Virus record (IMG/VR): IMGVR_UViG_3300030108_002220
Location: 1-26,768 of that record
From: a virus
DNA length: 26,768 bases
Reading direction: 5' to 3' (one strand)
The translations under genes were made by a program, and so were the position numbers. The notes beneath the pieces were generated by a model, which worked only from the letters and a program-made list of their open reading frames with translations, did not search any database and was not told where the DNA came from. Positions within the stretch are counted from its first letter, which is position 1; every line of letters starts with the position of its first letter. This document shows, one piece after another, positions 7,718 to 25,174 of this stretch.

Positions 7718-9565
7718 ATGCCGCTAAGTAAGATTAGTTTTGCTCCAGGGGTTAACAAAGAAGGCACAGAGTATACAGCTGATGCTGGATGGTTTGACTC
7801 TGACAAGATTAGATTTAGAAAGGGCAGGCCAGAAAAAATAGGAGGCTGGAGGAAATACAACCAAGCCGCTTTTGTTGGTATATGTAGATCTATACACGAC
7901 TGGTCATCGCTTGAATCAATTAAGTACTTGGGTGTCGGAACAAACCTAAAGTTTTATATTGCCGAGGGCAGTGGATATAACGATGTCACCCCGATCAGAT
8001 CTACAACATCTGCAGGCGATGTTACCTTCTCTGCTTCAAACGGATCGAGCACAATAACAGTTACAGATACTTCTCATGGGGCTGTCGTAAATGACTTTGT
8101 CACATTTAGCGGAGCAGCCACGCTGGGAGGGAATGTTACTGCAGCTGTATTAAATCAAGAGTATCAAATAGCAAGCGTGCCAACGACCAATACCTTTACG
8201 ATAGAGGCCAAAGATACGAGCGGCAGCACAGTAACAGCAAACAGCTCAGATACAGGAAATGGTGGATCCTCTGTTGTCGGAACATATCAGATAAACACAG
8301 GGCTAAATGCTTTTGTACAAGGGACTGGATGGGGTGCTGGATCCTGGGGCTTTGGTACTTTTGGAAGCTCTAGCTCTGTAGCTGCATCAGGTCAATTGAG
8401 ATTGTTTAGCCAGGATAATTTTGGTGAGGATCTTATATTTAATATCCGAGGTGGCGGGATATTTTACTGGGACGAATCTGGAGGCACTGGAGCAAGAGCT
8501 GTTAATATCACCACTCTTACCGGATCAAATCAACCAACCGTTGCTTTACAGGTTTTAGTTTCTGATGAAGACCGACATGTGATTGCCTTTGGGTCTAATC
8601 CGATAGGATCCTCTGATATAGACCCTTTGTTGGTTAGATTTTCAGATCAAGAGAATGCTGGAGACTGGACTCCAACAGCAACCAACAGCGCTGGTGGTGT
8701 CCGTATAAACTCAGGATCTCAGATAATCGGGGCAGTCCAAACAAGACAAGAGATACTTATCTGGACAGACGCAAGCTTACATTCGATGAGATTTGTTGGT
8801 GCTCCGTTTATATTTAACTTCAGCACGTTGAGTACCGATGTATCAATGATATCTCCTAACGCAGCTGTAAACGCCAGGGGCGTTGTTTACTTCATGGATA
8901 GGGGTAACTTCTATGTTTACAACGGATCTGTACAGCCGCTTCCCTGTTCCGTTAAAGACTTTGTTTTTTCTAATTTAAATAAAGATCAGTCGTTCAAGGT
9001 CTTTGCAGCAGAAAACAATGATTACAATGAAGTAATATGGTTTTACCCTATTGGAGAGGGGAATACAGAGATAACCAATTATGTATCTTACAACTATGAA
9101 GAAGGTTTGTGGGCAGTCGGAACATTAGGCAGAGGGGCGTGGATAGCTGGAGCAACTAGACAGTATCCCATTGCATCCACTGCAATTGATGGTGGTGATA
9201 ACTTCTTGTTTGAGCATGAAGTTGGTTTTGATGATGATGGCTCAGCAATGACTGCTTTTATAGAATCTGGAGATCTAGAGATAGGTGAGGGCGAACACTA
9301 TATGTTTGTGAACAAAATAATACCTGACTTTACTTTTACCGGAAATCAAACTGAAGCGTCTGCAAATATAATTATGAAGGGTAGCGATTTTCCGTTGGAG
9401 ACTCCGACTACGTTATCTAGTTCTACTGTGACACCATCGACTAAACAGTCATTTATAAGAAATAGATCCAGGCATTCTGTGGTTAGGATAGAAAGCGATG
9501 GGTCTGGCTATAAATGGAGATTGGGGGATCTAAGGTTTGATATGCGCCAGGATGGCAGAAGATAA
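7718..9565 (+). CDS. P22 Gp10-like tail accessory / DNA-stabilising protein
   Basis: A 615-residue protein. The N-terminus ISFAPGVNKEGTEY...GWFD.DKIRFRKGRPEKIGGW is the signature found across marine podophages for the Gp10-type tail accessory protein that plugs the head-tail channel; I place it there from this pattern. A Thr/Ser-rich insert (about residues 95-200, TSHGAVVNDFVTFSG) looks like a small beta domain. The remainder is beta-rich with a W.PTATNSAGG region, RQEILIWTD and Y.EVIWFYP, consistent with a beta-propeller-like fold. It starts immediately after the upstream TAA, and its stop overlaps the next ATG. Confidence 0.6.
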   Translation: MPLSKISFAPGVNKEGTEYTADAGWFDSDKIRFRKGRPEKIGGWRKYNQAAFVGICRSIHDWSSLESIKYLGVGTNLKFYIAEGSGYNDVTPIRSTTSAGDVTFSASNGSSTITVTDTSHGAVVNDFVTFSGAATLGGNVTAAVLNQEYQIASVPTTNTFTIEAKDTSGSTVTANSSDTGNGGSSVVGTYQINTGLNAFVQGTGWGAGSWGFGTFGSSSSVAASGQLRLFSQDNFGEDLIFNIRGGGIFYWDESGGTGARAVNITTLTGSNQPTVALQVLVSDEDRHVIAFGSNPIGSSDIDPLLVRFSDQENAGDWTPTATNSAGGVRINSGSQIIGAVQTRQEILIWTDASLHSMRFVGAPFIFNFSTLSTDVSMISPNAAVNARGVVYFMDRGNFYVYNGSVQPLPCSVKDFVFSNLNKDQSFKVFAAENNDYNEVIWFYPIGEGNTEITNYVSYNYEEGLWAVGTLGRGAWIAGATRQYPIASTAIDGGDNFLFEHEVGFDDDGSAMTAFIESGDLEIGEGEHYMFVNKIIPDFTFTGNQTEASANIIMKGSDFPLETPTTLSSSTVTPSTKQSFIRNRSRHSVVRIESDGSGYKWRLGDLRFDMRQDGRR

Positions 9566-9762: not shown

Positions 9763-10088
9763 CAGATGTTATAAAGGTTCTGGGTCAGGTTGATGTGTCA
9801 GCAACAACTACGACAGTTCTTTATACGGTTCCTGATTTAAATCAAACAACAGTTAGTTCCTTGGTGATATGCAACAGAGGGGGATCGGGGATTACCTTCA
9901 GGGTTAGCATCCATGTCAACGGCGCTACAGCTGATGATAAACAGTTTATATTTTTTGATGAAGACCTAGCTGCGACAACAACTAGAACAGTTGTTATTGG
10001 TATGTGTCTATCGCAAGCAGACATAGTTAAGGTTTATGCAAGCGCAGCAAATGTGAGTTTTAATTTATTTGGAGTGGAGACAAGTTAA
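9759..10088 (+). CDS. Small beta-sandwich-like virion protein
   Basis: A 109-residue protein with a GTG start at 9759 overlapping the preceding TGA. The pattern is all-beta: alternating hydrophobic and Thr/Ser segments (VDVSATTTTVLYTVP, TVSSLVICNRGG, FRVSIHVNGA, RTVVIGMCLS, DIVKVYASAANVSFNLFGVE). It resembles the short decoration or tail-attachment proteins that marine phages carry at this locus, but I cannot name a family. It probably acts outside the capsid or at the tail. The stop overlaps the next ATG. Confidence 0.7.
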   Translation: MTDVIKVLGQVDVSATTTTVLYTVPDLNQTTVSSLVICNRGGSGITFRVSIHVNGATADDKQFIFFDEDLAATTTRTVVIGMCLSQADIVKVYASAANVSFNLFGVETS

Positions 10089-12505
10089 TGATGTATCCGA
10101 ATCAACAACCAGCACCAATGCAAAGGCAAGCTAATCAGATGGCCCGTCAAGGCCGTTATGGAGACAGCATGTTGGTTCACATGAATCCTGCAGAGGTGCA
10201 AGGCATTGCCGCACTTTCTCCAACAGGCCAGCTAACCAGGAACCCGATGACAGGTCAGCCAGAAGCTTTCTTACCTTTCTTGGCTCCCTTGATCGGTAGC
10301 ATGGCTGGTAAAGCTTTCTTAGGCAAGACAGTTGGATCTGCTTTGGCTGGAGCTATAGGATCTGGACTAGCGACAACTGCAGTTACAGGAGACATTAAAA
10401 AAGGACTAATGTCAGGGATCACTGGGTTTGGTTTAGGAAAGGCGTTAGGCGCTGCGAGTGATGCGCTAAACCCTGAGATATCTGGAACTGCTAGCGCTCT
10501 TGGAGAAGCTCAAAAAACAGCTGCAGAAGCTAGTGCAGATCTAGCTAAAGCTGGAATAGCTGGTGGATCTCAACCTTTTACTCCAGCTCAGATAGGAGAA
10601 TTCACTGCAGCAAAAACAGCTGCAGATGCAGCAACTCAAAATGTAACAGACCTGACTCAAAACCTTGCCGATCTAAGGGGAGAGCAAACAATAGCAGATA
10701 GTTTAACAGCTCCATTTAGGCGGCCAGGGGCTTTTGGAAAAGCCTTGATGGATCCCCTAACCCTGACAGCTATTGGCACAGGAGAGGGCCAGAGAGCCCA
10801 GATGGAGGCGGAAGAAAGCATCATGGATCGGAATCGTCGCTTTGAAGAAGAGCGACAAGCTGAGCTTGATCGTGCTTATGCAACAAGAGATGCTGCAATC
10901 GGACTGGCTCAAAGCAGATATCGTGCTGGAGGAATAACAAGCATAAATCCACAAAACTACCAAAGATCATTACAGGGTTTTGATAACTTAGTTAACGGAA
11001 CAAATAATTATTTCAGGGGCGGTCAAGCTAAAAAGAATAAAGAAAAAGAAGCCGGATCCGATGTTATGAACGAAGCAATATCAGGCGCATTAGCTTCTGC
11101 TGCAATAAACTATGGAAACCCATCTATGCGGTTTGGCCCTGGAGGGATACCTTCTGGAACTTCTATGGTTCCTGGTGGGGCTGCTGCAGCTGCTAGGCAA
11201 GCTGCCTTAAGAGGCGGTGTAAAAAGCGCTGCTGAACTAGCTCAAGAATATGGGGCTGATTTTAGACCTGGCTTTGGTGGAGAGATAAATTATTTTAAAG
11301 ACGCAAGGCCTAAAACAGAAGTTCCAGAAGGAGTTGCTGTAAATAACCCAGTTATTGGCAGCGGAGGTGTTGATGCAGCGCCGTTTGCTGGGTTTCCTAG
11401 CACAATGCCTTCTTTTAACATAACAAATCCAACCTTTAATATTGGTATGGAAGGGTTTGGCGGAGTAGAGCCGGAAGCATTAAGAGCGATGGCGGCCCCA
11501 CAATCGACAGCTTCTCCCGATGTCGGAGCGCCAAACGTAATGCGTGACCCTGTTGCTATGGGTATTCCGGCTCCTCCGCCATCTCCAATGGCTCCGCCTA
11601 TGCCAGATATGAAGCAATCTATACTAGATGATTTTATATCTGAAAGAGGAGAGCCGACTATGTCGGTAGGATCTAAACCTCCAGGTATAGGGGTGGTTCC
11701 CGATTCGGTATCAAGGCCTCCTGTTGTTAATTTACCGCCTCCACCACCGCCTGTGGTTAGACCACCTATGCCATCATCTCCTCCACCGCTAGCTCCTCTT
11801 CCTCCGCCACCAGTGGGCAGGCCTCCGATGCAGGAGCCTGGGTTGGATATGATGCCGCCACCACCGCCGCCGCCAGTTAGACCACCTCTACCTCCAGCGG
11901 CTGAGCCTTTAACGATTTCTAGACCGCCCCCTAGACCAAGGCCGATTTCTCCCCCTTTATTAGATGAAATTGATTCTGAACTAGGAAGATTGGACACAAG
12001 AAGAAGGCCTCGTTCTAGGATACCTGGTCTTCAAGAAGGCGGGGCAACTGATATGACGGACAGATCCATGAATCCAACTATGGAATCTAATGGACAGATG
12101 ATTATTGAAAGGGCTGTACAAGCTATATCAGGAAGACTTTCTGAAGATGAAGCAGAGGCTGCAATAAATAGATTTATTGATGAGTTTGGATCTGAAACAT
12201 TTGCAATGCTTAGGGACAGGGTTCTTAAGGATATAGTACCAGGAGCTCAGACAGAAGGCGAGATTACCGGCATCGGGGGAGGCATGGATGACATGATCCC
12301 TGGCATGATCGGTGAGCAGCAGCCAGTGGCAGTTAGCCCTGGAGAGTATATTGTTCCGGCAGATGTTGTTTCTGGGATCGGTGATGGAAGCACTGATGCT
12401 GGTGTAGATGAATTGAACGGTATGCTAGACAGAGTAAGAATGGAGCGTACCGGAACAACTATTCAACCTTCCCCAATGAGATCTGGAGGCATATTACCAG
12501 CATGA
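10088..12505 (+). CDS. Large virion protein with Pro-rich region, tail/internal protein
   Basis: An 805-residue protein. Near the N-terminus is GDSMLVHMNPAEVQGI, then NPMTGQPEAFLPFLAP and a Gly/Ala-rich hydrophobic stretch (about 60-125, IGSMAGKAFLGKTVGSALAG) that could insert in membranes. A coiled coil (about 140-200) and a charged helix (about 235-275) follow. A proline-rich region of runs of 3-7 Pro spans about residues 490-625. The C-terminal domain has SEDEAEAAINRFIDEFG and VSPGEYIVPADVVSGIGDGS (about 749). These end motifs recur in virion proteins of ocean podophages. Its place before the gp13-16-like block suggests a tail or ejected protein; exact role unknown. Confidence 0.65.
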   Translation: MMYPNQQPAPMQRQANQMARQGRYGDSMLVHMNPAEVQGIAALSPTGQLTRNPMTGQPEAFLPFLAPLIGSMAGKAFLGKTVGSALAGAIGSGLATTAVTGDIKKGLMSGITGFGLGKALGAASDALNPEISGTASALGEAQKTAAEASADLAKAGIAGGSQPFTPAQIGEFTAAKTAADAATQNVTDLTQNLADLRGEQTIADSLTAPFRRPGAFGKALMDPLTLTAIGTGEGQRAQMEAEESIMDRNRRFEEERQAELDRAYATRDAAIGLAQSRYRAGGITSINPQNYQRSLQGFDNLVNGTNNYFRGGQAKKNKEKEAGSDVMNEAISGALASAAINYGNPSMRFGPGGIPSGTSMVPGGAAAAARQAALRGGVKSAAELAQEYGADFRPGFGGEINYFKDARPKTEVPEGVAVNNPVIGSGGVDAAPFAGFPSTMPSFNITNPTFNIGMEGFGGVEPEALRAMAAPQSTASPDVGAPNVMRDPVAMGIPAPPPSPMAPPMPDMKQSILDDFISERGEPTMSVGSKPPGIGVVPDSVSRPPVVNLPPPPPPVVRPPMPSSPPPLAPLPPPPVGRPPMQEPGLDMMPPPPPPPVRPPLPPAAEPLTISRPPPRPRPISPPLLDEIDSELGRLDTRRRPRSRIPGLQEGGATDMTDRSMNPTMESNGQMIIERAVQAISGRLSEDEAEAAINRFIDEFGSETFAMLRDRVLKDIVPGAQTEGEITGIGGGMDDMIPGMIGEQQPVAVSPGEYIVPADVVSGIGDGSTDAGVDELNGMLDRVRMERTGTTIQPSPMRSGGILPA
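11718..11965 (+). repeat. Proline-tract region
   Basis: CCN-rich stretch encoding poly-Pro runs broken by VxRPPM or VGRPPM units. The antisense frame is open and Gly-rich only because of this composition. Confidence 0.6.
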
Positions 12506-13014
12506 AGCCAAGCATAGAGTTAGCGTCAGTTAAACCCTTTAAGGATCTTATAAAAGAGCCAAGAGTTAGTGCTAAGTCGGAAAAAAGAGAATCAACTCAC
12601 ACGATTGCTTTGGTTCCTACTAATTATGTTTACACATTATGGCCTGATGTTAGAGATCACTTAGGCAAGGCTGTTGCTAGATCTAAAGGCAGATGGAATA
12701 TGGAGATGTTGTTTGCATCCATATCACAAAACCAACAGCAGTTATGGGTTGCTTTTGATGAGGACAAAAACATCGACGGTGTAGGAACCACTGAGTTTGT
12801 AGATTACCCAAACAAAAGAATGTTAGCGGTTCAGTTTATGGGCGGAAGGAGATTTAACGACTGGGTTTGGGACATCATAGAAAAATTTGATTCATGGGCA
12901 AAAGATAATCATTGCTCTGGTATTGAAGCAACCGCTAGAAATGGATTCTGGAAATGGCTTGAACAAGATGGTTTCGAGCAATCATATACAGTATATGAAA
13001 AGAGGTTTGATTAA
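12502..13014 (+). CDS. GNAT-fold protein, T7 gp13-like internal virion protein
   Basis: A 170-residue protein. From about residue 75 it follows the GNAT acetyltransferase strand-helix order: LWVAFDEDKNIDGVGTTEF (strands 2-4), MLAVQFMGGRRFNDWVWDII (strand plus helix), then a helix-strand pair ending WLEQDGFEQSYTVYEKRF, the usual GNAT C-terminal strand. The acetyl-CoA binding Q/RxxGxG/A signature is degenerate here (MGGRRFN), so catalysis is doubtful. Phage GNAT-like proteins of this length stand in the position of T7 gp13, at the head of the internal virion cluster, as here. It overlaps both neighbours by 1-4 bases. Confidence 0.65.
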   Translation: MKPSIELASVKPFKDLIKEPRVSAKSEKRESTHTIALVPTNYVYTLWPDVRDHLGKAVARSKGRWNMEMLFASISQNQQQLWVAFDEDKNIDGVGTTEFVDYPNKRMLAVQFMGGRRFNDWVWDIIEKFDSWAKDNHCSGIEATARNGFWKWLEQDGFEQSYTVYEKRFD

Positions 13015-15710
13015 TGGGCAAAGGAAGCAGTAAGGCTCCTAGTGGGCCACAAGAGGTAGTACAGACAACCAGTAACTTACCTGAATATGCCAAACCATAT
13101 TTCGAGGAGTTGCTTGGTCGTACTATGTACGAGAGCACAACGCCATACGAAGCGTTCCCTGGTCAAAGACTTGCAGATTTTACCCCTTATGAGCAAATGG
13201 GCATGCAAGGCATGTACGACATGGCTATGGCTGGATCGCCAATACAGACAGGCATGGCATCAGACATTGCTGCTCAGATCGGTTATCAGCCAAGTAATAT
13301 GGGAATGGAGATTGCCAGTAGATTCCAGCCGGAATCACTGCCAACTGACTTTGCTGCTGGTCAAAGGGATGTTGGATACACACCAACAGCATTCGATTCT
13401 GGATATACAGCTGGAGATTTAGGCCCTGGCTACACAGCAAGAGAGCTTACATCTAATCTTACGCCAGTTGATTTTGATGCTGGATACACAGCAAGAGCCG
13501 ATCAGACATTTGATCCTTTAGGCACAGATATAGCATCCAGGTTTACAACAGAGAGAGCTGCATCGACTTATGTTCCTGGTGATATATCACAAGGTTACCA
13601 GGCCGGAACTTTTACTCCAGATTATCAAGCAACTACATTTGATCCAGGCTATGAGGCAGCTGTCAGGGACTCTGGGTTTAGGATGGATGACCTCGTTAGT
13701 GGTTATACAGCCACTGACTTTGACCCTGGATATCAAGCTGGGACACTAGATCAAGGCTATCGAGGTAGGGACATTGCTTCTGAGTATCAAGCAGGCACTT
13801 TTGATCCTGGCTATGTTGCTAGAGAGTTAGGTCAGGATTACACGGCTAGAGACTTAGAGTCAGAATACACTGGGGATCTTGGAGCTCTTCCCACATTTGA
13901 AGCTGGGACTATAGCTGATGCAGAAACTCTAGAAAAATATATGAATCCATATCAGCAGTTGGTGACTGATATAGAGAAAAGAGAAGCAGAAAGAGCTTCA
14001 GATATACAAGCAGCTGAGATATCTCAACAAGCAGCTCAAGCAGGGGGTTTGGGTGGATATCGAGAAGCTATATTACAGGCAGAAAGAGAAAGAAACCTGG
14101 GGCAGCAGCTTGCAGATATCCAGGCTAGAGGCGGTCAGGCTGCTTATGAGAGCGCATTAAAGACATTTGAGGCTGATAGAGCTGCAAGGTTGCAAGAAGC
14201 TGAGATCGGTCTTACAAGCGCTCAAGCTCAAGATCAAGCAAAACAAGAAGCAGAAAGACTTAAGCAGTCTGCATTCCAGACTACAGAGCAGGCAAGGCAG
14301 CAACAGCAAAGGATGGCAATTGAATCCTTTGAGGTTGGAGAAAGAGCGAAGCAACAAGCCGCTGAGTTAGGGTTGACAGCTAGTCAGCAAGAAGAAGCGG
14401 CAAGACAAGCTCAAGAGAAATACAGGTTGCAAGCTATAGAGCAATCAGAAGCAACCAGGCAAGCAGAGCAACAGTTTACCACGCAGGCTTTTGAGGCTGG
14501 TCAAAGAGCTCAGCAAGAAGCCGCAAGGTTAGGATTGTCTGCCCAAGAGCAGGCCGATGCATCCAGAAGGGCTGAAGAACAGTTCCGACAAAGCGCATAT
14601 GAGTCATCTGTGCAATCAAGATCTCTAACAGAGCAGTTTGCCCAAGGTGCATTTGAGTTTGGCGAACAAGCCAAACAGAGAGCAGCAGAGCTAGGATTAA
14701 ATGCTCAGCAGCAAACAGAAGCTGCAAGGCAAGCAGAACAGACGTTTAAACAATCTGCTTTTGAAATCAATGAAGCAAACAAAAGAGCACAGCAAGAGCT
14801 AGAAAACGCTGTCGTTCAGATCAGAGAGAATGCTTTACAAGAAGCAGCTCGATTAAATCTGTCGGCAACACAGCAAAACAATGCAGCAAATCAAGCTGAA
14901 GAAGAGTTTAGACAATCTGCTGAAGCTCAAAACATCAAACGTAGAGCCCAGGAAGCGCAGTTAGAACAGTCTGCTTTCCAGTTTGGAGAGCAAGCAAGAC
15001 AAACTGCTGCAGAGCTGGGACTAAGCGAACAGCAAGCACAACAAAGAGCTAACGAAGCTGCAGAGCAATTTAGGCAGTCAGCATTTGAAACAACTGAAAG
15101 AGCCAGACAGCAAGAAGATCAACTCAAGAATCAGGCATTTGAGATAGGTGAAAGAGCTAAACAAGAAGCTGCTAGGCTTGGATTAAACGCACAGCAGCAA
15201 GAGGATGCTTCCAGAAGAGCCGCTGAAGAGTTCAGACAAAGCCAGTTCTCAGAGAATGAAAGGCTTAGGTTGTCTGCACAGCAAGAAAACAGGGCTGCTC
15301 AAGAGTTTAATATTAGATCTGCAGAAACTGCAGCTAGGTTGGGTCTGGCTGGTCTGGGTGCTGACCAGGCTACTAGGGCTCAACAGTTAGATGCAGCTAG
15401 ATTGCTTGGCACTTTGGGCGGTCAAGAACAAGACATGGCATTCGAGAGATTGCGAAACTTGCAGGCAGCTGGTCAGATACAAAGAGAGCTGCAGCAAAGA
15501 GGATTAGATATTGGATATCAGGATTTCTTAAGACAACAGGCGTTCCCGAAAGAGCAGCTTAGTTACTTTAGTAACATATTAAGAGGTTTGCCAATATCGC
15601 CTGGATCTACGCAAGCATCCTACGGTGCTGCAACAAGTCCTTATCAACAAGCTTTAGGGGCTGGAATCGGTGGCGTTGGACTTTATAGAGCATTAGCTGG
15701 CGGTACTTAA
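13014..15710 (+). CDS. Large repeat-built internal virion (ejection) protein
   Basis: An 898-residue protein with three parts. Residues 1-120: start MGKGSSKAPSGPQEV, then LPEYAKPYFEELLGRT. Residues 121-292: a tandem nonapeptide array, consensus GYxA(G/R)xFDP. Residues 385-816: eight consecutive 54-residue units, consensus FExGERAKQEAARLGLNAQQ in the first half and EEFRQSAFE in the second, with no gaps. The last unit is degenerate. The C-terminus (LDIGYQDFLRQQAFPKEQLS, then a Gly-rich end) is a motif set seen in ocean podophage virion proteins. The place and order match T7 gp14, but it is far longer than T7's 196 residues. It probably forms a long helical part of the DNA ejection conduit. The start overlaps the previous TAA. 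Confidence 0.7.
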   Translation: MGKGSSKAPSGPQEVVQTTSNLPEYAKPYFEELLGRTMYESTTPYEAFPGQRLADFTPYEQMGMQGMYDMAMAGSPIQTGMASDIAAQIGYQPSNMGMEIASRFQPESLPTDFAAGQRDVGYTPTAFDSGYTAGDLGPGYTARELTSNLTPVDFDAGYTARADQTFDPLGTDIASRFTTERAASTYVPGDISQGYQAGTFTPDYQATTFDPGYEAAVRDSGFRMDDLVSGYTATDFDPGYQAGTLDQGYRGRDIASEYQAGTFDPGYVARELGQDYTARDLESEYTGDLGALPTFEAGTIADAETLEKYMNPYQQLVTDIEKREAERASDIQAAEISQQAAQAGGLGGYREAILQAERERNLGQQLADIQARGGQAAYESALKTFEADRAARLQEAEIGLTSAQAQDQAKQEAERLKQSAFQTTEQARQQQQRMAIESFEVGERAKQQAAELGLTASQQEEAARQAQEKYRLQAIEQSEATRQAEQQFTTQAFEAGQRAQQEAARLGLSAQEQADASRRAEEQFRQSAYESSVQSRSLTEQFAQGAFEFGEQAKQRAAELGLNAQQQTEAARQAEQTFKQSAFEINEANKRAQQELENAVVQIRENALQEAARLNLSATQQNNAANQAEEEFRQSAEAQNIKRRAQEAQLEQSAFQFGEQARQTAAELGLSEQQAQQRANEAAEQFRQSAFETTERARQQEDQLKNQAFEIGERAKQEAARLGLNAQQQEDASRRAAEEFRQSQFSENERLRLSAQQENRAAQEFNIRSAETAARLGLAGLGADQATRAQQLDAARLLGTLGGQEQDMAFERLRNLQAAGQIQRELQQRGLDIGYQDFLRQQAFPKEQLSYFSNILRGLPISPGSTQASYGAATSPYQQALGAGIGGVGLYRALAGGT
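13374..13889 (+). repeat. 27-bp / 9-residue tandem repeat array (GYxA motif)
   Basis: The first run is 13374-13508 (5 units: GYTPTAFDS, GYTAGDLGP, GYTARELTS, NLTPVDFDA, GYTARADQT). After four poorly matching units and one extra residue, a second run of 11 in-register units starts at 13593 (GYQAGTFTP, DYQATTFDP, GYEAAVRDS and so on to about 13889). The aromatic residue at position 2 and Phe/Leu/Ile at position 7 are the most constant. Confidence 0.8.
14166..15461 (+). repeat. 162-bp / 54-residue tandem repeat array, eight units
   Basis: Units start at 14166, 14328, 14490, 14652, 14814, 14976, 15138 and 15300. Each begins with an FExGERAKQ-like helix, continues (A/E)A(E/R)LGL(N/S/T)AQQ and, at unit position 32, FRQSAFE. 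Spacing is exactly 54 residues in all units; units 5 and 8 are the most diverged. The DNA is also similar between units but not identical. Confidence 0.85.
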
Positions 15711-17989
15711 TGAATATATTTGAGCAAGAAGACATTATAAAGGGGCTGCCTGATCAAGCTTTGATGAAAGAGGCACAGATGCCGAGTGGTCGATTACCTC
15801 AATATCTTGTGGTATCTGAGATCCAAAGAAGAGCAGACATGAGGAAGCGTTTTGCTGGACAGCAACAACAAGCTCCAGCCGGAACAATAAAGGATCAGGT
15901 TATCTCTGGAGGGATCGCTGAGGTTCAGCCAATGCCAAAAGCCATGCAGATGGGAATGCAAGGTATGCAGCAGGGTATGCAGCAAGGCATGGCTCCCAGA
16001 CCTCCTATGGCTGCTCCCCCAGCTATGCCGCAACAAGCTCAACTACCTCCGCCTCCTCCGCAAGCTATGGCCCCTCAAGGGCCAATGCCAGGTGCAGTTA
16101 GAATGTTTGACGGGGAAGACGTTCCTAATAATCTTGATGATCAAATAGCGGCATTGCAAAGAATGGGTGTATCTATGGACGATATACAAGCTTATCTTGC
16201 CGATCCAAGCTCAATACCTGGGGTTGGGGATCCATCTTTGAGGATAGGTGAAAGCCGAGCTCCTACTTTAGTTGACACCAGCTATGGAACAGGAGCTCTC
16301 TTAGCTGGAGAGATACAAAATAGAATGGATGCCCAGAGTATCCCTGCAAACATGCCTATGGAGGATAGGGGTGGGCCACTTGATCTGAATCTTATGGCTG
16401 ATCAGAGTCAGCAAAACCAGAACAGAGAACAACTCATAAACATGGCTGGGCCAAAACAAGAAAATGTGGAATTGATCCCTGGTCAAGTTAGTGATGCGTC
16501 ATCTCAAGCACAAGCTTCTCAAATAATTGTTCCGCCTCCAGGCCCTGATGGTGAAGATAACAGACCTAGTTACGCAAGACTGGATGATCCAGAGCAAGAT
16601 GCAGAGCTTAGGAAAATTTTAGAGTCTGGCAGAACAGCGGTTGTAAATGGAGTTGAGATTCGTCTTGCAAGGCCTGCTGATAACATCCCTGGAACATTTG
16701 GTATGACTAATGAAAGCATCATGGCAGAGCAAAGGGAGATGGCAGAAAGAAGGGCTGAGATAGAAAGAGAAGAGGCAAGAAGAAATATTCCGATATCAAG
16801 TGAATTGATGATTAATGAAATACTTGATAGCAGTGATAGCGGTTTAACTGAAGAAGAGATGCGAATGGAGGCTCCAGAGGACGCAATCATAAAGGAGCAA
16901 ACCCTGAATAGAGAGCAGCTTATAAGGATGGCTGCTGAGCCACAAGAAGAGTATCCCAATGCAATCCAAACTGATGCTAGTAAGGTTAATCTTGAGTCAG
17001 CAACAACGCCATCTGAAGAGTTAATTACCTACGGACTGGGCGTTTCAGACAATGTGACAAGGGGTTTGGGGGAGATTTCTGATGAGTTTAAAGTAGCCCC
17101 TGATGTTGATGTCCCTGGTCTAAGCCAACAGACTAGAGATCTACTCAGGGATCCTTACGAATCCCTAAGAGGCCCTTTAGACGATCTAGAGCAGATTAAG
17201 ACAGATTATCTTGAGAGCGGCAGACAGGCGCAAGAAAAAAGAGAGAGCCTTGCTGAACTTATAAGAGGTCAAAAAATACCAGAACTTTCTTACTCAGAGC
17301 TTATAGCTCAATCAGATCAAAGGATGAAGGAGAGATCCGGCAAGCTTCGAGAAGAGGGCATTAATCAAGCCCTCATTGCCTTTGGTGCAAAGATCGCAGA
17401 AGGTAAGATAGGAGAGGGTTTAAGTGACGCAGGCAAGGCTGTAGCGGCTTCTAACGCTCAAAGAAGAGCTCTTGAGGTACAGCAAGAAGCCACGAGGATG
17501 GGCCTTAATAAAGCAGAGATACAAGCTAAGTTTAACGCCGAGCTACGCAAGCAAGAAAATAACATCAAGGCTATGGAAGTTGAGATCCAAGGCCTAGAGA
17601 AGCTGGGTGTTGATGAATTTACTGCAAACAAGTTTATTGCTGATAAAGAAATAATTGTTGAAAAAGCAATTGCAACGTTAATTGCTAGTGCAGAACTACA
17701 AGAAGCTAAAGCTCTTAAGCAAGACGAAAAGGAAGAAGGCTTGATGAGAAGGGCTGTTCTTGAAGCTGTTGAAGAGTTAATTGAGTCGATTCCTTCCACG
17801 ACTAAGATTACTATGCAGAACAAAGATCCAGATGCTATATACAAGCTCTATCAGAAATACATAAATGATCTGTCTCAACAGTTTTCAGTTGAGGTAGGTC
17901 AAAGCGATATAACATCCTCTGCAACTTCTGGAGGATCTAAGTTTAAGGTAACAGAAAAAAGCCAGAATATGCCTCAAAAGGACAGGTAA
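15710..17989 (+). CDS. Large internal virion protein, T7 gp15-position
   Basis: A 759-residue protein starting at the TAATG junction. The N-terminal block MNIFEQEDIIKGLPDQALMK...LVVSEIQRR is a motif recurrent in ocean podophages. It is followed by a Met/Gln repeat (GMQQGM, about 15950-15993), a Pro/Ala/Gln-rich linker to residue 125, and DDQIAALQRMGVSMDDIQAYL. A (L/Q)NREQLI(N/R)MA motif appears twice (about 16420 and 16910). The C-terminal third is helical and charged (residues 490-680), with EGINQALIAFGAKIAEGKIGEGL, an amphipathic segment. No enzymatic motif is seen. At 759 residues it is close in length to T7 gp15 (747), which lines the ejection channel; the equivalence rests on order and size only. 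Confidence 0.65.
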   Translation: MNIFEQEDIIKGLPDQALMKEAQMPSGRLPQYLVVSEIQRRADMRKRFAGQQQQAPAGTIKDQVISGGIAEVQPMPKAMQMGMQGMQQGMQQGMAPRPPMAAPPAMPQQAQLPPPPPQAMAPQGPMPGAVRMFDGEDVPNNLDDQIAALQRMGVSMDDIQAYLADPSSIPGVGDPSLRIGESRAPTLVDTSYGTGALLAGEIQNRMDAQSIPANMPMEDRGGPLDLNLMADQSQQNQNREQLINMAGPKQENVELIPGQVSDASSQAQASQIIVPPPGPDGEDNRPSYARLDDPEQDAELRKILESGRTAVVNGVEIRLARPADNIPGTFGMTNESIMAEQREMAERRAEIEREEARRNIPISSELMINEILDSSDSGLTEEEMRMEAPEDAIIKEQTLNREQLIRMAAEPQEEYPNAIQTDASKVNLESATTPSEELITYGLGVSDNVTRGLGEISDEFKVAPDVDVPGLSQQTRDLLRDPYESLRGPLDDLEQIKTDYLESGRQAQEKRESLAELIRGQKIPELSYSELIAQSDQRMKERSGKLREEGINQALIAFGAKIAEGKIGEGLSDAGKAVAASNAQRRALEVQQEATRMGLNKAEIQAKFNAELRKQENNIKAMEVEIQGLEKLGVDEFTANKFIADKEIIVEKAIATLIASAELQEAKALKQDEKEEGLMRRAVLEAVEELIESIPSTTKITMQNKDPDAIYKLYQKYINDLSQQFSVEVGQSDITSSATSGGSKFKVTEKSQNMPQKDR

Positions 17990-17992
17990 GAT

Positions 17993-20900
17993 ATGCCGAC
18001 ATATGAGGTTCAAGACGAGTTTGGAAATTCGTTAACACTTGAAGGCGACAGGCCACCAACTGAAGAAGAGCTCGAAGAGTTATTTGCGGAAAACTTTCCT
18101 TCCGGCATTGAAGCTGTAAAAACACCAGAAGAATTATCCCCCCAAGAAATAGCTGCCCAGCTAGTTGATACAAATGAAAGGCTGCTTGCGGAACAACAAG
18201 CAGACGAAGACATGTATGGTGATCAGAGGACTATCCTGGGAAGCTCCTACGAGTTCTTTAAAGCCATACCCAGGGGCTTTGGTACATCCACATTAAGCTC
18301 TGGAGAAGGCATAGGAGAGCTGTCTGACGCTGTTACAAACCTATCTGGGTATGAGGATCTAATTGATGACGGCGATTCTAATGCGTTGATTGCTGCATCA
18401 AGAGAAGGCAGAAAGATATTAGAAAACAATCTGGGTGCAGACGAAGTATATAGAAATGCTTGGTCAACAAAGCTTGGTGAGGGTATAGGATCTTTTCTTT
18501 CTTTTCTTGGCCCAGCAGGGCTTGCGAAAATTGCTGGATTAACAGGCAAGGCAGCTAAGTATGTAGGCGGATTGGGTACAGGAACGTTTGCCCTTGGCAC
18601 TGGTTCCGGTGAACAAGCACAAAGGATCCAGGCTGCTCGTGACTCTGGTATCGATGTATCAGAAAAACAAGAAGATGCTGCAATATTAGCCAGCTCTTTT
18701 GTTGGCTTATCAGAGCTTTTGCCTATATCTAAATTTCTTAAATCAATTAGAAAGATAGATGACAATCAGTACGTCGAGGGCATAAAGAAACAATTAGAAT
18801 CGGCTCTTCTTACCGGAACAACAGAAGGTGTTCAGGAGGTAGTTGCAAAACTTTCTCAGGACGCTATTGAGAGAGGGATATACAACGAGAATCTGCCAGA
18901 CACAGAAACTTTATACTCAGAAGTTGTTGGTCTAGGAGATGACTTCACCATTGGCGCAACTATAGGATTTGGTGCTGATCTGGTATTAAACGCTGTTGCT
19001 GGAAGAGCGCAGAAGGCCAGAAGAGAAGCCCAGCTTGAGCATGAAGCTCAAGAAAGAAAACGTCATCAAGATAACGTAGCACTAGCAGAAATGGATCTTG
19101 CCTTAATAGAAAGAGGCAGAGCAGATCCTTCATCAATTGTTCAAGATATCAACCCAGAGTTGATAGAACAGCCAGCATCTTTAATCCCACCGACAGCAAC
19201 ATTAGCTGAAGCTCAAGCTTTATCTGATATGTATCCATACGCCCACCAAATAGCCAGGATTGAGGGGGCTAACTTTCCTTTTATAAGAAACAAATTTTCT
19301 GCAGAAAGTGATGGAGATAAGTTTGCTGTCTTAGATAGTGATGGCAATAGGCATGGAAGATTGTTGGATTCCCTGGAACAAGCCAATGCTTTAGCTGGCA
19401 ATCTTAACGACATTGTTATATCTAAAAACATAACTAAAGGCGTATTGGATCGGCTGGAGTCAAGCCCAGAAGCTTATGACAGGCAACAAACAAAAGATCT
19501 TCTTAATTACGGCCTTAAGTTAAACAATCCTGACGCTAATAGAGTGACAAAAGATGCTCTCAACCAAGCTGCAGAAACTACAGTTGAAGATGGTTACGAG
19601 ACAGAAGGATATTCTGTCCAACAGCTGATAGACAACAATGTTTCTCCCAGGAAATACACAGCATCTCAAAAGATAAATGCAAAGAGACTAAAACAAGGAC
19701 TACCAGAAGAATCTGATCACAGCCTTGAAGACGTAAAGTCTGTTATAGAGCCAAAGTTTTTTGATCAACTACCAACCAAAGTAGATCGTAAAGTTACTAC
19801 AGCTCAGATATTTAGGCTCTTAAAAGATAAAAACATTACATCAGAAGCTGGATCTCCAGAGCTAAGATACCTTTATCAAAAGTTTGCTGGCATCAAGGAG
19901 GACAGTCCCAGGAGGCTTAGCGATTACACCAAGGGTGAGATGAATCTTATCTTTGAAAAGCTTGATGCCTTACCCGCCTTTTCAAAACCCACCAAGTTAC
20001 CAAACTTCAGACTGCCTGATTACACAGGCCAGCAGTTTTCTAAAGCAGTATCTATTCTCAAGAAAGATCCAGAGATCGGGCCGCAAGAGTTAGCTAACTC
20101 TTTAGGTATAGATATATCAAAGAAAAAAGGATTTAGAACTCTAGCGGATCTTAAGGCTGACATAGCTAATCAAGGAGCTGTTACACAAAAATCTGAAGTA
20201 CCCCTGGTTGAAACCGTTGTTGACAGGGATCCTGATCAGACAGTTGATGACTCTTTGCTGAATGATTTGAGCTCTAAGCTATCAAAACAAATGAAAGCAT
20301 ATGGGCTAGAGGATGTGGGCGTAAATGTTGATGCTGCATTAAGAACGGTTGCCAGAGATGCTGGTGGTAATTTTGTATACGGAATAAAAGCTGTTCCGGT
20401 AAAGAAAGATTTAGACGAGCAAGACTTAGATCTATACGGAGCGGGAAACAATTTTGCGTTTATTAAGACAGGAGATCTGAGTTCTGACGCTCAAGGTTTT
20501 TATTCTCCTAACATAGGGCAAATATTCTTGGGCTTGGATAGAGTCAAGGCAAACAATCCAAACGCAACCCCAGAACAAGCTGCAAACGAAATGATAGAAA
20601 CGATGGATCACGAGATCGTTCATGCTATGCGCCAGCTTGATGTCTTTAAAAGAAAAGAATGGGAAGTGCTTTCAAAGCAGGCTAAGAAAAAAATCAAGCC
20701 AGATGATGGTAAGAGTTATATCAGATGGGCGAATGAGGCTTATGCAGATCAAAACTTAAGGCAGCCTGAGTTGGTTGAAGAAGCTGTTGCTGAGATGATC
20801 AAAGACGGTCTGAAAGATAACAGACTACTAAGCGGCAAGCCTAAGTCGTTAGCCTCTAGAACAAAAGAATTCTTTGTTAGGTTGGGCAATGCTCTTGATG

Positions 20901-23900
20901 GATCTGGCTTTACATCGTTTAACGATATCGTTCAGAAGATAGAATCAGGAGAGATAGGAAGAAGAGAGCGTGATGTTGTAAGAACTCCTTACAGACTAGA
21001 AAAGCTTGGGCTATCGAAGGTTGGTGAGTTTGATGTATTTAAACAGCCAGCCAGGACTGAGAGGCTAGAAGATTTTCCAGATGATCTAAAGCCAGTGTTT
21101 GTTGATCCAGATGAAACGCCTTTAGATGCTGTAGCTTTTGCAAAAAGAAAGTCATCCACTCCGATACAAAGCGCAATAAATATAGCAACTACCAAGTATG
21201 CTGATTATAACAGCGCTGTCGAAGAGGAGTTTTTTGGATCTTTCTGGCCCAAGGTAATGAAAGAAATCAAAGGAACGACATCGCCAGAGAAAGTTAGGAC
21301 TGCAGCAAAAAGAGCAATCAGGGATATAGAGGCCTTTATAGCGGAAAACCCTAAGTATCGTGATTACTATGCACAGGATATGGCGGCAACCAGAGAGGCC
21401 TTGGAGAAAGATTTTGGAACCATATCCGATGACGATATGTTGTTTTATCAGCTTGCTAACGGACTAACATCCCCAGCAACTGTGCTTTCTGCAAACGTTG
21501 GCGACTCAATCAACATGCTTAGGCTATACAAATCTAGAGGCAATCTAGATGACATAGAGATGGGATTGAGCAAGAAAGGCAATCCGGTAATAACAAAATC
21601 ACCATTTAAAGTTTCTGGCACAACAGCCCCAACAAAAGCCCGTAGCCTCAAGGTTATGGATTTCTTAATTAAGTCATTTAGCAATGAGGCTAATCCAGTA
21701 AAAAGCGCAGTGGATTATATGCGTGAGGGTGTTAGCCCAAGAGAGTTGCAAGAATTCAACAGGAAGATGGGATACAAAAGCAATATCCCTAACATGAAAT
21801 CAATCCGATCCCTTGTAGAAAAGGCTACTGGGCAAGATGAAAAGATACCCAGGATGTTTATCTTCGGTAAGAAGATCGGCGCTTACACTCTTAACTTGAC
21901 TGGCGACTCACGATACACGACAATCGACGTATGGGAATCTAGGTTTATTAGGAGCTACTTTGAGGGGCTCTTTGAAAATAACACTGGAGTTCCGGTAACA
22001 GTAGACGAAGACACTTTGTTTCAAGAGTTCTCCTCTTTGTTTAAGGAGGAGTTTGATAAGGTGTCTGGATTAGATGCTGACCCTGCATCACTGCAGGCAA
22101 TGCGTTGGTTCTACATGATCGATGCAGCAAAGAAATCAGGATATAGAGGAGCTTCTACAAATGAAACGATCTCAGAAATCACCGACAGGTACATCACAAG
22201 GGATAGAGACAAGCGCGAAGATAGCAGGCGACAGAGCGATGAAGCGCCTGTTAGAGAAGTACAAAGGGAAGAACAGCTACAAGAAGAACTTACCCCCAGA
22301 GATCTAGGGATCATAGAGCCTAAGCCAAGCACTTTCACATCTAATGAACTAGATAGCATATCTGCAAAGAACGAAGAGGTAGCAGCAAAAGCTCCACCAA
22401 CAGTTATCCCAAAGATAAATCTTAACTCTCCGCCGGAAGTTCAAGCTGTTGCAGCAGAGCCAGAGAAAGGTAGAAAGCTTGATGCCCTTGATCGTGATCT
22501 GTTCTCTAGAAAAAACAAACCCCAGTTACCACCGGAACAACAAGCAGAGTTGGATAAGCTTGTTGGAGACAAACCTGGAGTAGATAAAACCCCTGGAGAG
22601 GGCTACCTGGAAATAGTCGGTGGCGGCAAGCTGGGAGAGATGTTTGATAGAGTTAGAAAGCGCACTGCAAACAGATACGCAAGATTAGAAAGACTATATA
22701 AAAATTCATCTCTTGGATTAAAAGATCTTCTTGCAGACTCCAGTGCTATGGCTGCTGTGTTGCTTTCAGATCGAGCAAGTGCAATTACTTCATCTGCTTT
22801 GCGTTTTGGTGTTCCGGTATATGAAAACGGTGTAACTACCGTAGAGCCATTTGAATTCAAAGGCAAAAAGTATAAAGGCCTGATAGATGTAATGGCCCCG
22901 TTATACGATAACAAATACAAAGTAAACCTAGAGGACATTGCACAGGCTTATGCTGTTGCTAGGAGAGGAAAGAGACTTAACGCAGAGGGCAAAGCAGTCC
23001 CTGGCACAGAGGAATCTTTCCAAGAAATAAACAAGATAGCCCAGAAGTACATTAACCCAGAGACAGGCAACTCTATCATCGAAGAGTGGTATGCAGCATG
23101 GCAAGCGTATAACAAAAATACGGTTCAGTTTTTAAAGAACACTGGTGTTTTAGATAACGAAACCGCTGATCTATGGTTAGAGCAATCTGACTATGTGCCT
23201 TTTTACAGACAAGCTACAGAAGATGGGGCTGATCTAGGCAGCGATGTTCCGAGAGTGTTTTCTGGAATGACAGCTGCTGTCCAGTTCACAAAGCTCAAAG
23301 GTAGCGAAAGGGCTGTTGATGTTCCTTTGCAAGAGGCAATAGCCAGAAACTTAGCAACAGCTATCGAAATGGGCATGAAGAACGTTGCCCAACAAAGAAT
23401 AGCAAGGGATCTCGTTAAGATAGGTCTAGCCAAAGAGGTTCCTTCAGGAGCTCCGAAGGGAGAACAACCGATAGTTGACCTTAGAGTTCAGGGTAAAAAA
23501 AGAAGTTTTATAGTAAATGATCCGCTACTTTACGAAACAATGTTACCAATGGGTGGTGGTTATGAACTTTTAGAAAACGTTCTTGGCGCTCCAGCTAGTT
23601 TTTTAAGAGAGATGGTCACCAGGGATCCTATCTTTGCTATAAGAAACATGATGAGAGATACCCTGGCAGCTTGGGTTACTACAGGGTCTAGCTTTACTCC
23701 TGTCCTGGGAACGGTAAAAGGATTGGCATCTGGAGTAAGACAGCTAGAAAGATTTGGTGTTATAGGTGGTTACGATTTTAAAAACGATCCAAAAGATATC
23801 GTTGCTTTTGTAAACAAAGAATCCAGGAAAAGAGGCATACCGACAGGAAGCAAGTTAGATAATCCAGTGTTTCATGCATTTTCTAGAATGTGGGATGGCC

Positions 23901-25174
23901 TGGGTTATTTGAGTACTTTATCTGATGCTGCGACTAGAAATGCTGTATATGAAGATGTGTTGGCTAGAACAGGAAATGAAGCAGAGGCAGCGTTCCAAGC
24001 CTTAGAAGTTATTAACTTTGCTAGGCGAGGAGATAGCCCAGTTATGAGGGTTTTAACTGCAGCTATACCATTTTTAAATGCAAGGATCCAAGGCTTGGAT
24101 GTTTTAGCTAGGGCATACGCTGGATCTTATTCTGCGAGAAATCCTAAAGAGAGCAGGGGTAGTGTTGCTGCTAGTGCATTAGCAAGAAGTGCTATATTAA
24201 CTGGATTAACTGGTCTTTATTATTTGTTGGTCAGCGATGATGATCAGTACAAAGATCAGTCTGAGTTTATAAAAGACAATAACTTTATTATACCAACAGC
24301 TGCAGGCGTACCAATACTGATACCGATCCCGTTTGAAATAGGCCTGTTATTTAAAACCATACCAGAAAGGATTCTTGACAAGACGGTTGGAGAGTCATCA
24401 ACAAGAGATGTGGCACAAACTGTTGCAAGAGGCGTTACATCAACGTTAGAGATAAATCCTCTTGGAATACAGGCAGCTGCACCCGTAATAGAATCTTATT
24501 TAAACTATAGTTTCTTCACCGGAAGACCAATAGTTCCGTACTACATAGATCAGAATGTGATACCTATGCTTCAATCGAGACTTGACTCCAGCGTTATATC
24601 TCAAGCAGTGGCTGAGTTTTTGGATAAAGGTAACATCAAGGTTAGCCCGTTAAAGATAGATCACATACTGACCGGATATGGCGGTACTTTGGGAACGTAT
24701 GTATTGGATGCAGTCGATGCGCTTTTGAGAAACGTTGTCTTACCCCAGGACAATACAACAGTCTTACCAAAGATGAAGCTAACAGAGTACCCGTTAATAA
24801 AAAGATTCTTTGCCAAAGAGTTTCCAGCTGGCCCTGCAGAAGATTTTTATGAAATCAAAAACAGGATAGATGAACTAGTAGGATCTCTAAATCAACTTAA
24901 TAGACAAGGGAGAACAGACGAAGCTGTTGCCTTTATTGAATTGCATGGATCCATGCTAGGCATGAAAGATGCGGTTAATGAATTAGCAAAAGAGCTTTCT
25001 AATCTGAATAGACTTGAACGGGAAGTGCTAACGGCTGATATGACAGCAGAAGAAAAGAGAGATCTGCAAGATCAGATACGCAGCGCAAAGATGGTGATAT
25101 TGAAATCAGAGGGAGCAAAATTCCTAAGACAAGAGGCCCAACTACCAACAATGGAAGTCAGGCCTCTCAACTAA
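17993..25174 (+). CDS. Giant polyvalent internal virion protein with HExxH metallopeptidase and LPD38-like domain
   Basis: A 2393-residue protein, the largest in the window, in the position of T7 gp16. Residues 1-30: small beta start YEVQDEFGNSLTLEGD. Residues 155-330: Gly/Ala-rich hydrophobic helices (FLSFLGPAGLAKIAGLTGKA) that may be membrane active. Residues 869-934: MDHEIVHAMRQ, with His873 and His877 as zinc ligands, Glu874 catalytic, and EEAVAEM at 929-935 offering the third ligand, the layout of HExxH peptidases. Residues 1300-1380: a domain with VWESRFIRSYFEG and LQAMRWFYMIDAAKKSGYRG found in phage polyvalent proteins. From 1870: RDPIFAIRNMMRDTLAAW and AATRNAVYEDVL...EAAFQALEVINFARRG, matching the LPD38 pattern. 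Residues 2060-2120 are hydrophobic. Presumably ejected to breach the envelope and act in the host. No lytic transglycosylase motif is seen, unlike T7 gp16. Confidence 0.75.
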   Translation: MPTYEVQDEFGNSLTLEGDRPPTEEELEELFAENFPSGIEAVKTPEELSPQEIAAQLVDTNERLLAEQQADEDMYGDQRTILGSSYEFFKAIPRGFGTSTLSSGEGIGELSDAVTNLSGYEDLIDDGDSNALIAASREGRKILENNLGADEVYRNAWSTKLGEGIGSFLSFLGPAGLAKIAGLTGKAAKYVGGLGTGTFALGTGSGEQAQRIQAARDSGIDVSEKQEDAAILASSFVGLSELLPISKFLKSIRKIDDNQYVEGIKKQLESALLTGTTEGVQEVVAKLSQDAIERGIYNENLPDTETLYSEVVGLGDDFTIGATIGFGADLVLNAVAGRAQKARREAQLEHEAQERKRHQDNVALAEMDLALIERGRADPSSIVQDINPELIEQPASLIPPTATLAEAQALSDMYPYAHQIARIEGANFPFIRNKFSAESDGDKFAVLDSDGNRHGRLLDSLEQANALAGNLNDIVISKNITKGVLDRLESSPEAYDRQQTKDLLNYGLKLNNPDANRVTKDALNQAAETTVEDGYETEGYSVQQLIDNNVSPRKYTASQKINAKRLKQGLPEESDHSLEDVKSVIEPKFFDQLPTKVDRKVTTAQIFRLLKDKNITSEAGSPELRYLYQKFAGIKEDSPRRLSDYTKGEMNLIFEKLDALPAFSKPTKLPNFRLPDYTGQQFSKAVSILKKDPEIGPQELANSLGIDISKKKGFRTLADLKADIANQGAVTQKSEVPLVETVVDRDPDQTVDDSLLNDLSSKLSKQMKAYGLEDVGVNVDAALRTVARDAGGNFVYGIKAVPVKKDLDEQDLDLYGAGNNFAFIKTGDLSSDAQGFYSPNIGQIFLGLDRVKANNPNATPEQAANEMIETMDHEIVHAMRQLDVFKRKEWEVLSKQAKKKIKPDDGKSYIRWANEAYADQNLRQPELVEEAVAEMIKDGLKDNRLLSGKPKSLASRTKEFFVRLGNALDGSGFTSFNDIVQKIESGEIGRRERDVVRTPYRLEKLGLSKVGEFDVFKQPARTERLEDFPDDLKPVFVDPDETPLDAVAFAKRKSSTPIQSAINIATTKYADYNSAVEEEFFGSFWPKVMKEIKGTTSPEKVRTAAKRAIRDIEAFIAENPKYRDYYAQDMAATREALEKDFGTISDDDMLFYQLANGLTSPATVLSANVGDSINMLRLYKSRGNLDDIEMGLSKKGNPVITKSPFKVSGTTAPTKARSLKVMDFLIKSFSNEANPVKSAVDYMREGVSPRELQEFNRKMGYKSNIPNMKSIRSLVEKATGQDEKIPRMFIFGKKIGAYTLNLTGDSRYTTIDVWESRFIRSYFEGLFENNTGVPVTVDEDTLFQEFSSLFKEEFDKVSGLDADPASLQAMRWFYMIDAAKKSGYRGASTNETISEITDRYITRDRDKREDSRRQSDEAPVREVQREEQLQEELTPRDLGIIEPKPSTFTSNELDSISAKNEEVAAKAPPTVIPKINLNSPPEVQAVAAEPEKGRKLDALDRDLFSRKNKPQLPPEQQAELDKLVGDKPGVDKTPGEGYLEIVGGGKLGEMFDRVRKRTANRYARLERLYKNSSLGLKDLLADSSAMAAVLLSDRASAITSSALRFGVPVYENGVTTVEPFEFKGKKYKGLIDVMAPLYDNKYKVNLEDIAQAYAVARRGKRLNAEGKAVPGTEESFQEINKIAQKYINPETGNSIIEEWYAAWQAYNKNTVQFLKNTGVLDNETADLWLEQSDYVPFYRQATEDGADLGSDVPRVFSGMTAAVQFTKLKGSERAVDVPLQEAIARNLATAIEMGMKNVAQQRIARDLVKIGLAKEVPSGAPKGEQPIVDLRVQGKKRSFIVNDPLLYETMLPMGGGYELLENVLGAPASFLREMVTRDPIFAIRNMMRDTLAAWVTTGSSFTPVLGTVKGLASGVRQLERFGVIGGYDFKNDPKDIVAFVNKESRKRGIPTGSKLDNPVFHAFSRMWDGLGYLSTLSDAATRNAVYEDVLARTGNEAEAAFQALEVINFARRGDSPVMRVLTAAIPFLNARIQGLDVLARAYAGSYSARNPKESRGSVAASALARSAILTGLTGLYYLLVSDDDQYKDQSEFIKDNNFIIPTAAGVPILIPIPFEIGLLFKTIPERILDKTVGESSTRDVAQTVARGVTSTLEINPLGIQAAAPVIESYLNYSFFTGRPIVPYYIDQNVIPMLQSRLDSSVISQAVAEFLDKGNIKVSPLKIDHILTGYGGTLGTYVLDAVDALLRNVVLPQDNTTVLPKMKLTEYPLIKRFFAKEFPAGPAEDFYEIKNRIDELVGSLNQLNRQGRTDEAVAFIELHGSMLGMKDAVNELAKELSNLNRLEREVLTADMTAEEKRDLQDQIRSAKMVILKSEGAKFLRQEAQLPTMEVRPLN

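Follow-up and report, generated by a model that had tools for sequence, protein, structure and literature searches.

A putative phage ejection protein with two repeat arrays of coupled length around a fixed predicted hairpin

Results

The stretch of DNA analysed here (the window) comprises positions 1 to 26,768 of the IMG/VR record IMGVR_UViG_3300030108_002220, from a marine phage, and contains, on the plus strand, an open reading frame of 898 codons (13014..15710) with encoded relatives in IMG/VR. The product is probably an ejection protein of a short-tailed phage that is injected ahead of the DNA. All parts of the protein are given in plus-strand coordinates. The N-terminal core domain (NLPEYA...PYEAFPGQRLADF; residues 1 to ~107; 13014..13334), delineated by alignments and also kept in array-less relatives, is followed by an array of 21 units of 9 residues each (residues 108-296; 13335..13901) with the consensus FDPGYxAxx, which was recognised by periodicity at lags 9, 18 and 27 (z ~7) and by listing of the units, several of which are degenerate. 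Three FDPGY motifs of this array, at 13638, 13719 and 13800 (13638..13814), each face a helix break of the second array according to the register analysis described below. Between the two arrays lies the tip, a fixed segment of 76 residues (YMNPY...FEADRAAR; 13926..14165) that has the same spacing in all measured relatives and is predicted to form an alpha-helical hairpin that turns at GGLGG. The C-terminal array consists of 21 units of 18 residues, or 7 of 54 (residues 385-762; 14166..15299), predicted to form long helices; these are broken once per 54 residues by the motif LGL[TSN][AE] (14367, 14529, 14691, 14853, 15015 and 15177; 14367..15191), that is, at residues 452, 506, 560, 614, 668 and 722. 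The protein ends with the C-terminal core domain (QEFNIRS...LGAGIGGVGLYRALAGG; 15300..15707), which matches phrog_4287 and is also kept in array-less relatives.

The genes around the array protein are ordered as follows: the phrog_3287 hub, a 109-aa protein, an 805-aa protein, a 170-aa protein, the array protein, a 759-aa protein and a 2393-aa protein. The succession of 109 aa, ~700 aa, 170 aa, array protein and ~700 aa is kept in most of the sufficiently long IMG/VR loci, and the gene order of phage CRP-901 is similar. The hub is a virion structural protein of 615 aa (7718..9565, plus strand) with homologues annotated as 'stabilization protein' or 'needle head protein'. The upstream partner of the array protein (170 aa; 12502..13014, plus strand) belongs to phrog_7642, and the syntenic gene of CRP-901 is annotated as a GNAT acetyltransferase. 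The position of the downstream partner (759 aa; 15710..17989, plus strand) is mosaic: the gene found there in locus L009 (L235:11245-13746) encodes a transglycosylase-type domain, and the window protein shows no family match. Transglycosylase-type domains also occur in ejection proteins of other podoviruses. The putative ejection cluster closes with the gene of the 2393-aa protein (17993..25174, plus strand), which contains a zincin-like HEIVH motif at residue 873 (~20609) and LPD38 near the C terminus; this giant protein is probably ejected as well, possibly with a protease domain. Elsewhere in the window, a tail fibre (169-3069) carries a C-terminal Peptidase_S74 intramolecular chaperone. 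The 805-aa protein (10088-12505) is proline-rich, ranges from 622 to 1247 aa in relatives and has no family match, and its length correlates weakly with the number of array units, n. The correlations between n and the lengths of neighbouring proteins (Spearman 0.38 and 0.26) are too weak to indicate a shared dimension.

Searches of Pfam and of PDB sequences with the window protein gave no significant match. The profile of phrog_4287, annotated 'DNA ejection protein', matches 42 of the 57 family members (best E value 5.9e-21), although the match to the window protein itself is weak (E = 0.0022, residues 765-893); the homologues from MinM2 (2.1e-19) and DSL-LC04 (6.9e-9) are also recognised, and gp21 and gp22 of phage SU10 fall in the same family (9.5e-118 and 3.5e-109). 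Taken alone, the direct match between the core profile and SU10 gp22 is weak (probability 67%). The products gp20-24 of SU10, gp21 and gp22 among them, are present in the virion and gone after genome release (PMC9509320), and it is on synteny together with membership in PHROG 4287 that the identification as an ejection protein is based. The ejection setting proposed in the first-pass annotation of this DNA is thus upheld by the podoviral gene context and by the family whose SU10 members leave the virion (PMC9509320).

The same annotation had offered a tape measure among its readings. Helical repeats of variable length are what one would expect of a protein whose repeat number sets the length of a long tail, and a nearby gene of DSL-LC04 is annotated as a tape measure. 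However, the related genome G002, which harbors locus L009, encodes the phrog_3287 hub along with a podoviral portal (phrog_1216), the SU10-type adaptor (SU10_adaptor, PF24175) twice, a terminase and a capsid protein, and none of its genes was recognised as coding for a tail tube; moreover, PHROG 4287 is an ejection family, and the core is found in podoviruses as a protein of ~280-350 aa. A role in determining tail length is, therefore, very improbable. The window, being a fragment, does not include the head module, and its own evidence of a short tail is the phrog_3287 hub.

Autocorrelation of residues 385-816 yields 39% identity at both lag 54 (z = 18.8) and lag 108 (z = 17.5), with sub-peaks at lag 18 (z = 8.9) and lag 36 (z = 9.3), against a maximum z of ~4.3 in shuffled controls. 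The gapless 54-residue periodicity that had been noticed from residue 385 (nt 14166) on is, accordingly, real, and so is the LGL break in each unit, with LGL[TSN][AE] recurring every 54 residues at six sites from 452 to 722. The count of eight units over 432 residues has to be lowered to seven (385-762, nt 14166-15299): the last putative unit, residues 763-816, belongs to the C-terminal core, residues 763-898 of which align with array-less relatives. Residues 1-384 display a separate 9-residue periodicity (z 6-7 for lags 9, 18, 27 and 36, with 7.0 for lag 9 and 6.9 for lag 27), which reflects the N-terminal array (residues ~108-296). This second array lies outside the region covered by the first-pass annotation and consists of non-helical 9-residue units in the N-terminal half. 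A tube made of helices only is not supported.

The first scan of IMG/VR identified 22 loci, and profile scans gave 298 and 340 encoded relatives, ~80 from each of which were taken into the analysis; the family of the CRP-901 type was gathered in addition. The length of the N array was measured from NLPEYA to MNPY, and that of the C array from FEADRAAR to the C-terminal anchor. In all 58 distinct full-length relatives, the latter distance falls into a single class modulo 18, a constancy that covers 771 units, or 13,878 residues; modulo 54, the same relatives split into three classes (30, 21 and 7). Within the core repeat units of relatives, cyclic-profile alignment detected no indels other than whole 18-mers. 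Given that array length is constant modulo 18 and falls into three classes modulo 54, the latter value is ruled out as the basic unit, and the unit under selection, as judged from array lengths, is 18 residues, with 54 merely a superperiod. The earlier suggestion that unit length is under selection thus holds with respect to strict length but applies to a different unit; likewise, indels that break the 54-residue phase, which had been set as the observation that would count against it, do occur, but as whole 18-mers accompanied by a compensating change in the number of 9-mers. Eighteen residues make five alpha-helical turns at 3.6 residues per turn and span 27 A at a rise of 1.5 A.

The lengths of the two arrays are coupled. 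Among the 58 relatives, the N length equals 161 + 9n where the C length equals a constant plus 18n, with residuals from -1 to +3 that are exactly 0 in 38 proteins (Pearson r = 0.9998 for n = 0-25), and the 76-residue segment between the arrays is fixed in all measured relatives. A maximum-likelihood tree built from the sequence outside the repeats requires at least 30 changes of n, so the matching lengths are not a single inherited coincidence. The coupling was followed at the level of individual events in 21 disjoint close pairs that differ in n at 82-98% identity: 25 indels in the N array are matched by 25 in the C array, the ratio of C to N indel lengths is exactly 2.00 in 22 of the 25, and all array indels counted, from 5 residues upwards, have a partner. 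The two members of each pair of indels are about equidistant from the tip (r = 0.988; offset 1.41 +/- 0.61 units). For instance, between the window protein and L003, an insertion of 18 aa at 21.8 units pairs with one of 36 aa at 20.9 units, and a second insertion, of 27 aa at 5.2 units, pairs with one of 54 aa at 4.7 units.

The rule N = 162 + (C-143)/2 was also applied to six relatives from contigs of bacterial MAGs that had not entered the fit. The observed and predicted N arms were 279 and 279 residues in L242, 120 and 122.5 in L243, 107 and 108 in L244, 101 and 99 in L245, 108 and 108.5 in L246, and 136 and 137.5 in L247, so that all six are within 2.5 residues of the rule; L243-L247 are distant relatives, and L242 is close to L012 and hence not fully independent. 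The rule is broken by the N arms of the distant members L167, L168, L169, L171, L183 and L184, which are array-less or differently built. In one distant branch (L183, L184, L169, L171 and L168), the proteins are without arrays, and the N arm, with variable unrelated inserts, ranges from 129 to 186 residues at an almost constant C arm.

Could the matched numbers result from neutral expansion of tandem repeats, with ancestry or recombination habit, rather than structure, accounting for the match? Repeats expand readily, and the synonymous divergence of array segments is raised in some pairs, as though cassettes had been exchanged. Against this stand at least 30 independent changes of n, the 25 paired indels with their 1:2 lengths and equal positions, array lengths that are always multiples of 18 over 771 units, and the locked register of motifs (see below). 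In addition, purifying selection acts on the codons of the arrays, with dN/dS of ~0.01-0.24, well under 1, in the seven close pairs for which it could be estimated (no value was obtained for the C array of L018/L019). Compensatory indels in effect refute neutral expansion, which we regard as barely credible. As for the mode of change, some pairs, L001/L003 and L007/L013 among them, but not all show more synonymous divergence in the stretch bounded by the paired indel sites than on either side of it, as if the whole tip segment had been swapped; the paired indels may arise via cassette exchange by recombination.

The arrays are matched not only in length but also in the placement of motifs. Of 99 occurrences of [FI]DPG[YF] in N arrays, 98 share a single distance to a C-array helix break, defined by the pattern [LMF][GN][LM][STND], compared to 0-1 of the 99 at neighbouring offsets. 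Where the breaks have moved by one 18-mer, the FDPGY motifs have moved by one 9-mer, and this phase changes ~11 times on the tree; thus, in L085, the breaks are at 2.72, 5.72 and 9.72 units and the FDPGY-type motifs at 4.11, 7.11 and 11.11. Permutation of proteins at the observed offset of 2 left 40.4 of the 99 motifs in register on average and 63 at most, and pairing with partners from another phase class left 2.3%; the offset was picked from the data, and the neighbouring-offset and phase-class controls guard against an effect of that choice. The fit is loose in L099, L103 and degenerate N units, and among the helix segments of 54 residues some of 36 and 72 also occur. At the level of sequence, these comparisons demonstrate that the two arrays are quantised, coupled one-for-one and locked in antiparallel register around the fixed, predicted hairpin.

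Structure prediction with AlphaFold2 for the window protein (alignment of 13 sequences; mean pLDDT 48.6) gave helices of 50 residues with 4-residue breaks at each LGL, in agreement with the helical repeats noted at first pass. In the model of L125, a short homologue (57 sequences; mean pLDDT 56.1), helices 178-209 and 213-282 form the tip hairpin at pLDDT ~70-88, and the second of them runs on into the C array. In both models, the N array is coil (pLDDT 30-40), and neither shows it packed on the C helix. Nevertheless, the topology of the hairpin in the L125 model would set the N array antiparallel beside the C array, as the indels require. A Foldseek search of the PDB with the low-confidence model detected no fold with an E value below 1, and the matches in BFVD are mostly unnamed proteins of uncultured phages with very large rmsd.

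Discussion

The observations are best accounted for, with a probability of about 0.72, if the window protein is an ejection protein with an antiparallel hairpin stalk, in which the N strand runs along the C helix and which may have a role in setting length. Under this reading, a small core would carry one inserted array before the 76-residue alpha-helical hairpin and another after it. From the tip, the C array would return as helical 18-residue units with a rise of 27 A each. Alongside it and in the opposite direction would run the N array, whose extended 9-residue units, at 3 A per residue, would also cover ~27 A, with every C unit faced by one N unit. The n paired units would form a stalk that ends in the hairpin at the tip and has the two core domains, N-terminal and C-terminal, together at its base. 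Because 9 extended and 18 helical residues both span ~27 A, we strongly infer that the two arrays pair physically. The FDPGY turns would face the LGL[STN] breaks, so that both strands would kink at one place and form hinges, and stalk length would evolve in 2.7-nm steps, both strands together, from ~7 to 32 units in relatives.

Which chain supplies the N strand is a separate matter, given that the coupling of sequences fixes the register and not the chain. The N array of one copy could fill the groove between the C-array helices of its neighbours in a ring or tube, as gp16 of T7 tapes the interfaces between gp15 subunits (PMC8954989). Nothing in the sequences argues against such pairing between subunits, and equidistance from the tip fits intra- and intermolecular antiparallel pairing equally; we consider it a serious contender, if at somewhat less than even odds. 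An oligomeric tube of the window protein is plausible.

For the hairpin stalk, the next question is that of dimensions. If straight, stalks of 21 and 32 units would measure 57 and 86 nm, respectively, and straight rods of that size are longer than usual envelopes and than phage head interiors. A simple ruler in which n equals the width of the periplasm is therefore doubtful, and folding at the hinges, either in the head or as a permanent zigzag, has to be considered. In the latter case, each LGL break with the opposite DPG turn would reverse the chain, and the protein would form a compact internal core of ~8-nm segments whose number and length depend on n. Such a bundle is favoured by turn-forming motifs that coincide on the two strands, by the breaking of every helix at LGL in the AlphaFold2 models and by the difficulty of fitting a straight rod of 57-86 nm into a phage head, but the 36- and 72-residue segments tolerated among those of 54 would make it uneven, and we view this arrangement as possible but tentative.

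Returning to the extendable stalk, the hinges could allow a rod longer than the head interior to be packed and straightened later. The window protein itself would be ejected, and the stalk would fix the reach of part of a trans-envelope conduit, which is how we would interpret its presumed length-setting function. Conceivably, the protein is a self-calibrating rod, with unit-by-unit antiparallel arrays that evolve only by paired indels, comparable to the paired positions of an RNA stem, and with a length that is matched in each phage, by steps of 2.7 nm, to the host envelope or to the virion; we advance this more specific idea as a speculation somewhat less likely than its opposite.

Structure is routinely deduced from compensatory substitutions; insertions that compensate one another in distant arrays of one protein, with 1:2 lengths and a locked register, are a very unusual signal that provides, from sequence alone, a candidate topology (an antiparallel hairpin) and an axial spacing (9 extended residues to 18 helical ones). 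We found no description of a coupled double array with compensatory indels in the open-access literature, where publications on 18-residue repeats, tandem repeats in ejection proteins and ruler repeats contained nothing matching, and we know of no other protein with these features. The family is of a known kind, podoviral ejection proteins, and the coupled double array is apparently new within open-access coverage. The natural length series of ~7 to 32 units would allow a direct approach to the question of whether the ejected conduit has a set length and, if so, what this length matches, and the protein could serve as a natural model for extendable rods that combine a helix with an extended strand.

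Comparison with known systems

Tape measure proteins of siphoviruses are, like the window protein, long and helical, and theirs set a dimension by length; the setting differs in that the gene context here is that of a short tail, and we know of no paired second array in those proteins. The gp14/gp15/gp16 ejectosome of T7 resembles the present system in gene order, in likely role and in having an extended peptide that cements helices. The gp14-like proteins, of ~200 aa, are unlike the window protein, and the solved structures have no sequence match to it. In T7, the 'molecular tape' of gp16 cements gp15 helices between subunits (PMC8954989), that is, in trans, and the N strand of the window protein would be the in-cis counterpart of this tape on the gp15 tube.

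In SU10, a Kuravirus, gp21 and gp22 match the profile over the small Ala/Gln/Gly-rich core and occupy a similar place in an ejection-gene cluster that ends in a very large protein. Both are far shorter than the window protein (350 aa for gp21 and 322 aa for gp22), and gp22, on reading its sequence, has neither array. The two SU10 genes (L241:21904-23937) are adjacent members of PHROG 4287 and apparently paralogues. The same slot is filled in MinM2/Pag-Yong1, DSL-LC04, HTVC023P, HTVC027P and the Caulobacter phages RW/GB2A by proteins with related tip and C-terminal domains, most clearly so in MinM2; in contrast to the window protein, the core proteins of this group (MinM2, DSL-LC04, HTVC023P/HTVC027P and RW/GB2A) are ~280-320 aa long where read and lack arrays.

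The gp33 protein of the cultured Roseobacter phage CRP-901 shares a homologous core (hhalign E value 3e-23), lies in the same order of genes behind a GNAT gene and possesses both an 18-residue C array and a coupled N array. It differs in the sequence of the C unit (RFGAEDVMRGQFMEDRAA) and in an N unit of 12 residues (GQYQGASREELL). Among its homologues, a gain of 12 residues accompanies a gain of 18 in L108, L109, L112 and L118, and a loss of 24 accompanies a loss of 36 in L117; if it includes a short helix, the 12-residue N unit could cover 27 A as well.
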